From: Afipia sp. 64-13
GTDB lineage: Bacteria; Pseudomonadota; Alphaproteobacteria; Rhizobiales; Xanthobacteraceae
DNA: 50,457 nt
Reading direction: 5' to 3'
Assembly: GCA_001897755.1 (NCBI GenBank)
Contig: MKUJ01000016.1
Location: 30,637-81,093 of the forward strand
Shown: one piece after another, positions 5,607 through 15,054 of the stretch
How positions within the stretch are numbered: the stretch's first letter is position 1
Layout of the letters: each line of letters begins with the position of its first letter
Translations under genes and position numbers: made by a program
The notes under the pieces: generated by a model
Databases searched by the model: none
Seen by the model: only the letters and a program-made list of their open reading frames with translations
What the model was told of the DNA's origin: nothing

Positions 5607-6791
5607 CTACGGCGCGGCGATCGCATCCAGCGCCGCGCCGAGATCGCGCTCGACCGCGGCGGCGGACAACTCCACCACCCGGTAGCCGCGCTCGCGCAGC
5701 CATTCGCCGCGACGGGCGCGGTCGCGCGCCACCACTTCGGTCTCGCCGTCATGGACCACCTCCACCGCGACGCGGCGGATGAAGGAGACGAAATCGGGGA
5801 TGTGCCGTCCCACCGGGGTCTGGCGCTTGAACTGGGCGGCGAAACGCCGGTCGGTGGTCAGCGCCTTCCACAGGATGCGCTCGGCGTCGGTCGGATTGCG
5901 CCGCAGCAGCCGGGCGAGGCCACGCACGCTGCCGCCGCTGTCCTGTCCGCCGTGGCCGTCGCCATGCTCGGCGAGCAGCGTGCGCAGCCGCTCGGCGCCG
6001 TCGCTGTCGAGCACCCCGCCCTTGGCCGGGCCCTTGCGGCCCTCGGCGATCGCCATCACCACGCCGTGCAGCGTGTGCATGTCCTGCTTGGTCGGCTCCA
6101 TCCGGGTGAAGATGTTGCGCAGATTGACCAGCATGGTGTCGCGCTTCTCCACCGGACGCAAAAACTCCACCTTGTCGAGCTCGGCGACCAGATTGTCGAA
6201 GAACGCCTGCATCTGGTGGCTGGAGGCGCGCTCGGAGCGTTCGGGCATGGCAAACGGCAGCGCGCCGCCGGTGGCCTGCTTGAACCACTCATAGCCGGTC
6301 AGCAGCACCGCCTGCGCCAGATTGAGCGAGGCGAAGGCCGGATTGACCGGAAAAGTGATGATCCGGCCGGCGAGCGACACTTCCTCGTTGGTGAGGCCCC
6401 AGCGCTCGCGGCCGAACAGGATCGCGGCGGTGCCGCCCTGCCCGATCTCTCGGATGATCTCGCCGGCCGCCGCCTCCGGCCCGACCACGGGCTTGGCCTG
6501 GTCATGGGCGCGCGCGGTGGTGGCGAACAGCAGCGAGCAGTCGGCCACCGCCGCCTCGACGCTGTCGAACAGTTCCACCGCATCGAGAATGTGATCGGCC
6601 CCGGCCGCCGCGCGCTGCGCCGCCATGTTCGGCCAACCGTCGCGCGGCTTCACCAGCCGCAGCCGCCGCAGGCCGAAATTGCCCATGGCGCGGGCGGCCA
6701 TGCCGATGTTCTCGCCGAGCTGCGGCTCCACCAGGACCACGACGGGTCCATCGGGCTGGGTGGGCGTTTTGGTCTTGTCGGTGCCCGACAT
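5607..6791 (-). CDS. TrmJ-like SPOUT RNA methyltransferase fused to a DUF559 nuclease-like domain
   Basis: From the ATG at 6791 the protein has 394 aa. The N-terminal ~240 residues form a SpoU/TrmJ methyltransferase: motif 1 NIGMAARAMGNFG, motif 2 LFGRERWGLTNEE, motif 3 SLNLAQAV. TrmJ 2'-O-methylates position 32 of tRNAs. The C-terminal ~100 residues match DUF559, a PD-(D/E)XK fold related to Vsr-type endonucleases, with LLRRNPTDAERILW, PDFV and AVEV, but the usual EVDG is replaced by EVVHDG, so catalysis is uncertain. A start at 6836 (AAGG upstream) would add 15 residues encoded by the 21-bp array. The gene stands alone. Confidence 0.88.
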   Translation of the reverse strand: MSGTDKTKTPTQPDGPVVVLVEPQLGENIGMAARAMGNFGLRRLRLVKPRDGWPNMAAQRAAAGADHILDAVELFDSVEAAVADCSLLFATTARAHDQAKPVVGPEAAAGEIIREIGQGGTAAILFGRERWGLTNEEVSLAGRIITFPVNPAFASLNLAQAVLLTGYEWFKQATGGALPFAMPERSERASSHQMQAFFDNLVAELDKVEFLRPVEKRDTMLVNLRNIFTRMEPTKQDMHTLHGVVMAIAEGRKGPAKGGVLDSDGAERLRTLLAEHGDGHGGQDSGGSVRGLARLLRRNPTDAERILWKALTTDRRFAAQFKRQTPVGRHIPDFVSFIRRVAVEVVHDGETEVVARDRARRGEWLRERGYRVVELSAAAVERDLGAALDAIAAP

Positions 6792-6796
6792 CGGCT

Positions 6797-7005
6797 CACT
6801 TTCTGAATCAACGGCTGAAGGGTGTGAATCACCCATCGAAGACCTTGATTCAAGAGGCGAGGTTTTGTGCCGGCCGCCGAGGCGGTTGATTCAAAAGCCC
6901 AGCCTTCCGATTCAGCGCCTGAAGACACTGAATCAAGCCGCGAGCGCGTTGATTCAACCGCTTAAGAGTTTGAATCAAGTCGTGAAGAATTTGATTCAAG
7001 CCGCG
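6797..7005. repeat. 21-bp-phased array of nine TTGAWTCAA/GANTC sites
   Basis: GAATC or GATTC occurs at 6805, 6826, 6847, 6888, 6909, 6930, 6951, 6972 and 6993 (first base of each). The spacings are 21, 21, 41, 21, 21, 21, 21 and 21 bp; the gap holds one degenerate 20-bp unit (6860-6879). Five sites have the full TTGATTCAA or TTGAATCAA core (6845, 6886, 6949, 6970, 6991). The flanks are weakly conserved, roughly GCCGCGAG before and AAGCCGCG after. All nine are GANTC, the CcrM methylation site. The array occupies the gap between the methyltransferase-nuclease gene and icd, next to the AT-rich stretch 7017-7085 that probably holds promoters. Confidence 0.95.
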
Positions 7006-7246
7006 GGACAGCGTTCTGAAAAAATCTCCCACGAAAATTAAATTCAACAATAAAACAAACAAGTTACGACATCGTATTGAATCGAAGGATTCCGCGTCTG
7101 GCATCGCGCCCGACGCAGCTGCCGCCAAGGCCGGTCTTGCATCGCTCTACTGCTTTGGGCTGCCTTCCGCGCTTCATGGCGCGGTGCTATAGCCGCCGGC
7201 GAATATCGTTCCCGCCGCAATTCCCCTCTCAAAAGGCACGATCCGC
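7006..7246 (+). other. icd leader / promoter region
   Basis: This stretch holds no gene that I can support. 7017-7085 is strikingly AT-rich for this genome (runs of AAAA, AATTAAATT, AATAAAACAAAC) and is the likely promoter zone for icd and perhaps the divergent methyltransferase gene. Two more GANTC sites occur at 7079 and 7088, out of phase with the array. No strong Shine-Dalgarno was seen directly before the icd ATG (sequence CAAAAGGCACGATCCGC). Confidence 0.4.
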
Positions 7247-8464
7247 ATGGCAAAAATCAAGGTAGCGAACCCCGTTGTCGAACTCGATGGCGACGAGATG
7301 ACCCGGATCATCTGGCAGTACATCAAGGACAAGCTGATCCATCCATTCCTTGACGTGAACCTCGAATATTACGACCTCGGGATGGAGCACCGCGACGCGA
7401 CCAACGATCAGGTGACCATCGACGCCGCCAACGCCATCAAGAAGCACGGCGTCGGCGTCAAATGCGCGACCATCACCCCGGACGAGGCGCGGGTGAAGGA
7501 ATTCGGCCTCAAGGAGATGTGGAAGTCGCCGAACGGCACCATCCGCAACATCCTCGGCGGCGTGATCTTCCGCGAGCCGATCATCTGCAAGAACGTGCCG
7601 CGCCTGGTCCCCGGCTGGACCAAGCCGATCATCATCGGCCGCCATGCCTATGGCGACCAGTATCGCGCGACCGATTTCAAGTTCCCGACCGCCGGCACGC
7701 TGACCATGAAGTTCGTCGGCGAGGACGGCAAGGTGATCGAGAAGGAAGTGTTCCGCGCACCGGGCTCCGGCGTCGCGATGGGCATGTACAACCTCGACGA
7801 CTCGATCAAGGACTTCGCCCGCGCCTCGTTCAACTACGGCCTGTCGCGCGGCTACCCGGTCTACCTGTCGACCAAGAACACCATCCTCAAGGTCTATGAC
7901 GGCCGCTTCAAGGACATCTTCCAGGAGATCTACGATTCCGAATTCAAGAAGGAATTCGAGGCCAAGAAGCTGACCTACGAACACCGCCTGATCGACGACA
8001 TGGTGGCCTCGGCGCTGAAATGGTCCGGCGGCTATGTCTGGGCCTGCAAGAACTACGACGGCGACGTGCAATCCGACACCGTGGCGCAGGGCTACGGCTC
8101 GCTTGGCCTGATGACCTCGGTGCTGCTGACGCCGGACGGCAAGACGGTGGAGGCCGAAGCCGCCCACGGCACCGTGACCCGCCACTACCGCGAGCACCAG
8201 AAGGGCAACGAGACCTCGACCAACTCGATCGCCTCGATCTTCGCCTGGACGCAGGGCCTCGCCCACCGCGCCAAGCTCGACAACAACGAGGAACTGGCGA
8301 AGTTCGCCAAGACGCTGGAGCGGGTCTGCGTCGAGACGGTGGAAGCCGGCTACATGACCAAGGACCTCGCGCTGCTGGTCGGCGCCGAACAGCGCTGGCT
8401 CTCGACCACCGGCTTCCTCGACAAGGTGGCGGAGAACCTGACCAAGGCGATGGCGACGACGTAA
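7247..8464 (+). CDS. icd: Isocitrate dehydrogenase, NADP-dependent
   Basis: A 405-aa homodimeric, eukaryote-like NADP isocitrate dehydrogenase that oxidises isocitrate to 2-oxoglutarate in the TCA cycle. Visible signatures: [16 protein letters not shown] at the start, [19 protein letters not shown] (substrate binding), the IDDMVA helix and [19 protein letters not shown] near the coenzyme site. The length and sequence differ from the E. coli Icd type and match the alphaproteobacterial form. It is a single-gene unit with a strong terminator. Confidence 0.97.
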
Positions 8465-14630: not shown

Positions 14631-14851
14631 AACCGTCCAATCGCGCTTTGCTCGAATCCGCCGCTCCCGATGAGGGATCACGCGGCCCTGTTCCACGCCG
14701 CTTTTAGACGGGGCCCGAGAGCCTGTCCACAAAGCGGCATCCACGAAGCGGATTTAGGATCAGACGGTTGCGAGCGCACGACCCCCGATCGTCTAAATTC
14801 CGGTCGCGTTGACAGCCCCAGAATCCCGTGTTTTGCTTCGCACACGACGTC

Positions 14852-15054
14852 ACGTCGGAAGAGACCGGCCCAGCCGGCGCCGAAGGAGCAACCGCCCCGG
14901 AAACTCTCAGGCAAAAGGACCGCGTGACGGATCAAATCTGGAAAGAGATACGGCCGGGCCGACCGGCGCGGTATCCGCCGACGGGATAATACTCTCAGGC
15001 AAAAAGACAGGTGGGGCTTCTCAAGGCTGGCAGAACCTTTGGATTCAAAGGTTC
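14852..15054 (+). promoter_or_regulatory. Tandem glycine riboswitch upstream of gcvT
   Basis: Two aptamer copies are visible. Aptamer 1 (~14852-14930) has CGGAAGAGACC, GCCGAAGGAGCAA and the conserved ACTCTCAGGCAAAAGGACC. Aptamer 2 (~14935-15016) has CTGGAAAGAGA, GCCGACGGGATAA and ACTCTCAGGCAAAAAGACAG. This is the classic layout of the tandem glycine riboswitch, which turns on glycine cleavage when glycine is high. A perfect 8-bp hairpin (AACCTTTG/CAAAGGTT, ~15034-15054) follows, just before the AGGAG of gcvT (15066-15070), without a T-tract, so control of translation is more likely than termination. The rest of the gap (14631-14851) shows nothing else clear. Confidence 0.95.

Follow-up and report, generated by a model that had tools for sequence, protein, structure and literature searches.

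A 21-bp-phased array of GANTC-bearing palindromes in the trmJ-icd neighbourhood of Afipia, and similarly phased arrays across the order: a candidate platform for a DNA-binding protein

The operators of ArgR consist of two palindromic boxes whose centres lie 21 bp apart; the REP/BIME elements of enterobacteria are extragenic palindromic repeats, often placed near gene ends and present in hundreds of copies. The array that is the subject of this report shares with the ArgR operators the placing of palindromic boxes two helical turns apart, and differs from them in the sequence of the box and in having up to nine units; unlike REP/BIME, it is represented, by profile, at one to a few places per genome. 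Its nearest working analogue is ori2 of Vibrio cholerae, in which, according to the excerpts of PMC6090056 and PMC2865523, six 12-mers separated by gaps of 10-11 bp each contain a Dam site, and to which RctB binds efficiently only when these sites are fully methylated. Both consist of short sites that return roughly every two turns of the helix, and every such site includes one for adenine methylation. V. cholerae ori2 uses GATC and Dam, its sites run head to tail, and it is an origin beside its initiator gene, whereas the array has GANTC and CcrM, palindromic cores, and none of the signs of an origin. A second comparison is with the promoters controlled by GcrA and CcrM, with which the array has in common the presence of intergenic GANTC in a CcrM-bearing bacterium. 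In such alphaproteobacteria GANTC is over-represented between genes (excerpt of PMC3973325), and in free-living Bradyrhizobium diazoefficiens 99.77% of GANTC is methylated (excerpt of PMC4840208). The top 50 GcrA peaks of Caulobacter hold 1.78 GANTC per 1-kb region, against 0.58 at random (excerpt of PMC3667746); the motif YGAKTCK has been proposed for GcrA activation in Caulobacter, and no such extended motif is reported for Brevundimonas in the excerpt of PMC7987155. GcrA peaks thus have about two GANTC per kb (PMC3667746, as excerpted), whereas the array has nine in less than 200 bp, and 21-bp phasing, its defining property, was not found in the excerpted GcrA literature (PMC3667746, PMC7987155). 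The nearest alphaproteobacterial precedent is the occlusion of GANTC by MucR, which covers these sites and keeps CcrM off, leaving them hypomethylated (excerpt of PMC5172544); in Caulobacter no consensus motif is known for MucR, according to the excerpt of PMC7987155, and the array, with an AT content of 49%, is not strongly AT-rich. Among the literature matches listed, as excerpted and with subscription papers outside their scope, no description of such a phased array was found, an absence that is not proof.

The array lies in a 50,457-nucleotide stretch of DNA (the window) from the 3.6-Mb genome of Afipia sp. 64-13 (G000). It extends over 6803..6999, with no strand assigned to it or to its parts, and is matched by the profile at G000:C16:37440-37635. 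Nine 9-bp cores are separated by 12-bp linkers (one is 32 bp long) with a weak YGAAG-like box in mid-linker. The cores are CTGAATCAA at 6803..6811 (core 1), GTGAATCAC at 6824..6832 (core 2), TTGATTCAA at 6845..6853 (core 3) and, after a 41-bp step, again at 6886..6894 (core 4), CCGATTCAG at 6907..6915 (core 5), CTGAATCAA at 6928..6936 (core 6), TTGATTCAA at 6949..6957 (core 7), TTGAATCAA at 6970..6978 (core 8) and TTGATTCAA at 6991..6999 (core 9). Within them, GAWTC starts at 6805, 6826, 6847, 6888, 6909, 6930, 6951, 6972 and 6993, the last of these ending at 6997, so that the successive spacings are 21, 21, 41, 21, 21, 21, 21 and 21 bp. An initial annotation of this DNA had listed these nine starts and spacings and counted five perfect TTGAWTCAA cores; on recheck of the sequence the former proved exact and the latter was borne out. 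Its contention that a fixed 21-bp step is not chance is also upheld: 18 of the 55 pairwise separations of the 11 local GAWTC are multiples of 21, a phasing equalled by none of 20,000 random placements. The placement of all sites on one DNA face, which it had also proposed, stands as a helical arrangement at the level of DNA, and is only approximate across the 41-bp step, which falls one base short of two periods.

The window as a whole is depleted of GANTC (109 observed, 269 expected from shuffles). The 11 GAWTC in 6701-7100 compare with 1.34 per kb over the remainder, and the array is the densest GANTC cluster of the window, just as the corresponding array is the densest in 200 kb of a complete relative (9 per 250 bp in each). 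Runs of three or more GANTC at 20-22 bp occur nowhere else in the window or in those 200 kb, apart from the relative's own array of eight. The TRF program detects just a short piece of the array (6949-7004, period 21), because the linkers differ from each other. Five further pairs of GANTC at 21 bp, an excess, occur outside arrays in 250 kb; none has the core motif, and no claim is built on them.

Two divergent genes flank the array, and the identities previously given to them, a methyltransferase-nuclease gene and icd, are confirmed. To its left, on the minus strand (5607..6791), is a trmJ-like gene encoding a SpoU/TrmJ methyltransferase fused to the nuclease-like domain DUF559, with its start codon 11 bp from core 1; to its right, on the plus strand (7247..8464), is icd, for NADP-dependent isocitrate dehydrogenase. 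DUF559-coding DNA follows trmJ in all 36 loci checked, and the fused gene therefore looks ordinary for the family. A promoter scan near the array found no sigma-70-like site. Between array and icd lies an AT-rich block of approximately 7035..7092 (limits by eye, strand not applicable; AT is 65% in 7010-7095), and the GAWTC pair at 7079 and 7088 belongs to this block, apart from the nine-core array. Similar blocks adjoin the array in relatives: one with its own GAWTC is aligned in 16 of 22 Afipia loci, is seen by eye in L017 and L018, and was not picked in L020, L024, L033 and L041. Elsewhere in the window, at 14845-14932, is a glycine riboswitch aptamer (63.1 bits).

The test set out in the initial annotation, inspection of the same gap in related genomes, shows that the 21-bp step and the cores are kept while the linkers diverge. 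Upstream DNA was available for 25 Afipia icd loci: in 22 of them it contains the array, and in L022, L036 and L038 it does not. A sequence-only profile of three units (R1), with the best 150 candidates scored per Afipia genome, matches the array in 26 of 29 genomes at E < 0.01, always in the trmJ-icd neighbourhood and at one place per genome; among these candidates, the best match away from that neighbourhood has an E-value of 0.0156. Three genomes have no profile match: G009 retains the locus with a single core left, and G002 and G023 are 84% complete and yielded no trmJ match. A strict pattern of two perfect cores has one match off the locus (G026 C12; L005, 1501-1530), with the cores 21 bp apart in what is apparently coding DNA. 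In 13 species pairs, which overlap and are not independent, so that the counts are a description and not a test, the core (TGAWTCA) is changed in 60 of 805 columns, the linkers in 399 of 1606 and downstream noncoding DNA in 761 of 3424; the cores change at about a third of the pace of the linkers. When the best matches of linkers are averaged, the array of another species scores above the rest of the linker's own array in 8 of 8 comparisons, with a margin of only 0.03 for L017-L018. The units descend by orthology; they are old, with no repeat turnover or homogenisation. The initial annotation had allowed that the array might be a minisatellite. The number of phased units does vary, from 2 (L149, L153) to 9, as a neutral minisatellite would have it, but the units have diverged within arrays, linkers match between species, cores are constrained, and one fixed locus is occupied genus-wide. 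A neutral minisatellite is barely credible on these observations.

What has been conserved is more than a methylation site. Over 153 units, in which GANTC is fixed by the way that sites were chosen, the conserved motif is TTGAWTCAA with a weak linker box near YGAAG. A or T occupies the central N of 151 of the 153, compared with 69 of 100 GANTC elsewhere in the window; in the flanks of GANTC, position -3 is T in 75% of units, position +3 is A in 93% and position +4 is A in 67%. In 16 species pairs, the 117 central columns with a site in both species comprise 100 that are the same, 16 A/T exchanges and 1 other change; other A/T columns of the same pairs became G or C in 528 of 2423. The description of the locus as an array of CcrM sites is thus correct in that every unit is GANTC, and is insufficient in that the A/T centre and bases outside GANTC are also conserved. 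CcrM needs only GANTC. The A/T centre, the flanks and the linker box are conserved and are not needed by CcrM; a second reader of the DNA is therefore the simplest account.

These same facts weigh on the proposal, raised in the initial annotation as a methylation-sensitive switch or replication-timing sensor, that GANTC is itself the working part, its density reading hemimethylation after passage of the replication fork and thereby controlling icd or trmJ through the cell cycle. The genome does carry GcrA and an ORF with the RAMA domain, which is a domain of CcrM, and from these and the B. diazoefficiens methylome it is predicted that the array units are probably methylated. The near-complete methylation in that species, the GANTC enrichment at Caulobacter GcrA peaks and the intergenic excess of GANTC in CcrM-bearing alphaproteobacteria, all cited above from excerpts, are consistent with such a switch; so are the standing of the array as the densest GANTC cluster and its position, some 27-35% of the chromosome away from parS. 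Against it, constraint extends beyond GANTC, which is all that CcrM needs. The cores are also unlike YGAKTCK, having A after GANTC in 93% of units, a weak test in view of the origin of that motif in Caulobacter and its absence from Brevundimonas in the excerpt of PMC7987155. Lastly, the array lies upstream of, and not within, a TGCTAT-like element near icd that is common to relatives (by eye). A switch of this kind is an unlikely candidate.

The resemblance to ori2 raises the further question of replication, either an origin or a timing or titration site of the datA or crtS type. Repeats at two turns, each with an adenine-methylation site and adjoining AT-rich DNA, and their restriction to a single place per Afipia genome by profile, are iteron-like, and the 12-mer array of V. 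cholerae (excerpts of PMC6090056 and PMC2865523) offers a parallel. The surroundings are not those of an origin. In the 10-kb windows to the left and to the right of the array GC skew is positive (15 of 16 over 160 kb of G007); it changes sign at parS, from which the array is far removed. Across eight genomes, one of which is in three contigs, the distance between parS and icd amounts to about 27-35% of the chromosome. Thus the array is not near the origin, nor is it at the terminus as judged by distance from parS, with the terminus assumed to lie opposite; neither location is supported. The DnaA box TTATNCACA is absent from 5.5-8.5 kb of the window, and the nearest genes to the array are trmJ, icd, an HbpS-like gene and a Na/H exchanger gene, with no initiator gene alongside. 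Little credence is given here to a replication or titration element.

The relation of the array to its two neighbours is looser than the layout in the window suggests. No array is found within about 560 bp upstream of trmJ in 10 of 27 Afipia trmJ loci; icd, which could not be located in one of these ten genomes, has the array beside it in the other nine. Two genomes have a pair of units at trmJ and lack them at icd. For Afipia birgiae, the single example examined by protein family, HlyD-type and MFS genes stand between trmJ and the array. Beyond the genus the array is shorter in the Bradyrhizobium-Tardiphaga neighbourhood; a run of at least three units lies upstream of icd in 15 of 75 non-Afipia loci, many other loci of that set have one TTGAWTCAA in the gap, and two exact 21-bp steps are present in 6 of 60 trmJ-upstream regions chosen from other genera of the family. 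Five of the 15 runs, those inspected by eye (L060, L074, L111, L115, L125), lie directly before trmJ, even where icd is distant. The array is tied to the trmJ-icd neighbourhood and not to one gene. An operator of trmJ alone or of icd alone was rejected as a general rule, as the array sits by either gene across lineages and by unrelated genes in other families.

It is in those other families that the view of the array as peculiar to one gap fails: similarly phased arrays occur at other loci across the order. The profile was run over 397 genomes with stricter filters and with the best 14 candidates scored per genome; under these terms at least 54 genomes matched at E <= 0.001, at least 49 of them outside the family. 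The Afipia search (best 150 candidates per genome) yielded eight off-locus matches at E-values of 0.1 or below, against an expectation of about three. Profile E-values, calibrated in Afipia only, may therefore be some threefold optimistic, which would mean one or two chance matches in 397. Forty-seven out-of-family places, weaker rows and second strands being left out, were examined; as the same profile had picked them, the agreement between their motif and that profile is in part circular. At least three GANTC with a neighbour at 20-22 bp are found in 33 of the 47. These 33 come from 12 other families, a number that falls to 10 on exclusion of five arrays located within long ORFs (L326, L345, L350, L363, L371); these five may be coding coincidences and are kept in the count of 33, as is L372, whose four phased sites are two separate pairs. 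The other 14 places did not reach three phased GANTC and do not enter the unit statistics. Runs of four or more are seen in 13 of the 33, with a maximum of eight. Of 90 steps, 81 are 21 bp, eight are 22 bp and one is 20 bp; a 22-bp step roughly keeps the helical phase and breaks the reading frame. Of 128 units, 119 have A or T at their centre.

These arrays sit at unrelated loci, often between convergent genes. The longest, in L339 (G050:C338:3421-6270), follows a gene for an RNA methyltransferase (PF04452) and consists of eight uninterrupted 21-bp units. Some neighbours appear at more than one locus, with linkers that differ: HpcH/HpaI next to a flavin reductase (L332, L354), Host_attach next to an alpha/beta hydrolase (L340, L365), and a gene resembling acetyl-CoA hydrolase (by Pfam in L333, and as an ORF of similar size and place in L336, L337, L349 and L359). 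A three-unit array in L343 lies between terminase and phage portal genes, and L362 has the same layout, possibly that of a gene transfer agent cluster. Phased GANTC in L345, L350 and L358 falls within a YcjX/DUF463 reading frame (by Pfam for L345, by size and eye for the others), and this may be coincidence of coding. Both neighbours have a Pfam match in 11 arrays, of which seven are convergent (two loci being counted twice in the seven), four tandem and none divergent. The position of the Afipia array between divergent starts is thus an unusual setting, and a pure promoter-operator function is therefore unlikely to be general.

Whether the units work as DNA or as transcript is a separate matter. 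A transcribed element, either a series of hairpins in the leader of the trmJ transcript or a small RNA, would be helped by a UUCR-like loop on the trmJ strand. Both strands of the array do fold better than shuffles (z -5.1 and -4.1), but palindromes fold by construction. Neighbouring core centres differ in 51 of 65 steps in 11 representatives of the Afipia clade, which makes perfect stems, whereas outside the family such centres differ in 24 of 90 steps and are the same in 66. Covariation is strong at W. Beyond it there is weak residual pairing (linker pair 12/17, p 0.0025; linker pair 13/16, p 0.016; Watson-Crick positions summed with W excluded, p 0.025; all uncorrected), and re-paired folds that retain W reach z -1.3 on the plus and -2.0 on the minus strand, but the outer stem and the centre-adjacent positions have no covariation above shuffles. 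The best Rfam match in 6700-7300 has an E-value of 0.77 and nothing relevant was found, and of the four tandem-pair arrays with both neighbours identified, two run along the genes and two against. An RNA element is, on balance, quite improbable. The alternation of A and T was dropped as a sign of pairing or of alternating orientation, since W exchanges freely (16 of 117) and alternation is absent outside the family; it is read here as lineage history in Afipia.

Twenty-one bp are also seven codons. In many species open frames cross the array on either strand, and LNQ or LIQ heptads can be read on both, as would be so if a small coiled-coil protein with the repeat L-[IN]-Q-x-[LV]-K/Q-x were encoded. 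Steps of 20, 22, 41, 43 and 44 bp break the frame, however, and no common start codon was seen (by eye); on these two grounds a coding heptad repeat was set aside. In the core, moreover, third codon positions are fixed (partly by site choice) and a second position, W, varies, and two array ORFs have no Pfam match. A coding origin of the repeat is very improbable.

In 13 Afipia genomes TTGAWTCAA occurs 200 times and is not enriched genome-wide, the palindrome of equal composition, TTCAWTGAA, occurring 305 times; therefore no ordinary regulon is visible. An apparent enrichment against a reversed control (18 copies) vanished against the composition-matched palindrome, and a TTGAWTCAA regulon was rejected. 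Isolated sites are conserved between species in four groups only, which are leads. A pair or a single TTGAWTCAA lies in AT-rich DNA (GC 0.39-0.46) near position 1200 of L257, L262, L288 and L303, one locus in four Afipia genomes, and is perhaps a MucR-like target. The 15-mer TTTGAATCAAAACGT lies upstream of an oxidoreductase-like gene (by eye) at 1200 in L255, L284 and L299, from three Afipia genomes, and again at 1200 in L286, a different locus of flagellar appearance (by eye).

The explanation favoured here, and thought somewhat better than even, is that the array is a DNA-level platform for a putative oligomeric, sequence-specific DNA-binding protein. A 9-bp palindrome, TTGAWTCAA, recurring every two helical turns would let copies of that protein bind next to each other along a single face of the helix, where they could build a cooperative filament or a wrapped complex. 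The lack of genome-wide enrichment of the core, the off-locus pair in G026, the single core left in G009 and the failure of the array to follow one gene weigh against this explanation. The phasing, the conservation of core and step, the descent of units without homogenisation and the recurrence in other families are direct observations; the protein, its cooperativity and an effect on icd or trmJ are postulated to account for them. Any such protein is probably one that the order has in common. In Afipia, a platform between trmJ and icd would be expected to set the transcription of neighbouring genes or the local state of the chromosome. Because every core holds GANTC, CcrM should methylate all of them, and occupancy may depend on methylation; a gating of binding by methylation is thus possible. 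A bolder form of the proposal is that the arrays are an order-wide class, one or a few per chromosome, on which a dedicated protein of the Hyphomicrobiales polymerises along one face with a CcrM-dependent grip, making a local boundary gated by the cell cycle. So specific a proposal is rather unlikely to hold in full; if true, the class would be the counterpart, in the world of CcrM, of methyl-gated iterons.

The arrays are short, mostly noncoding and found at different loci in several families, so that one can be excised, moved and re-phased in the laboratory. A conserved and regularly spaced set of potential CcrM sites offers a compact handle on two questions: what recognises or masks GANTC apart from GcrA and MucR, and whether control through CcrM methylation extends beyond promoters.
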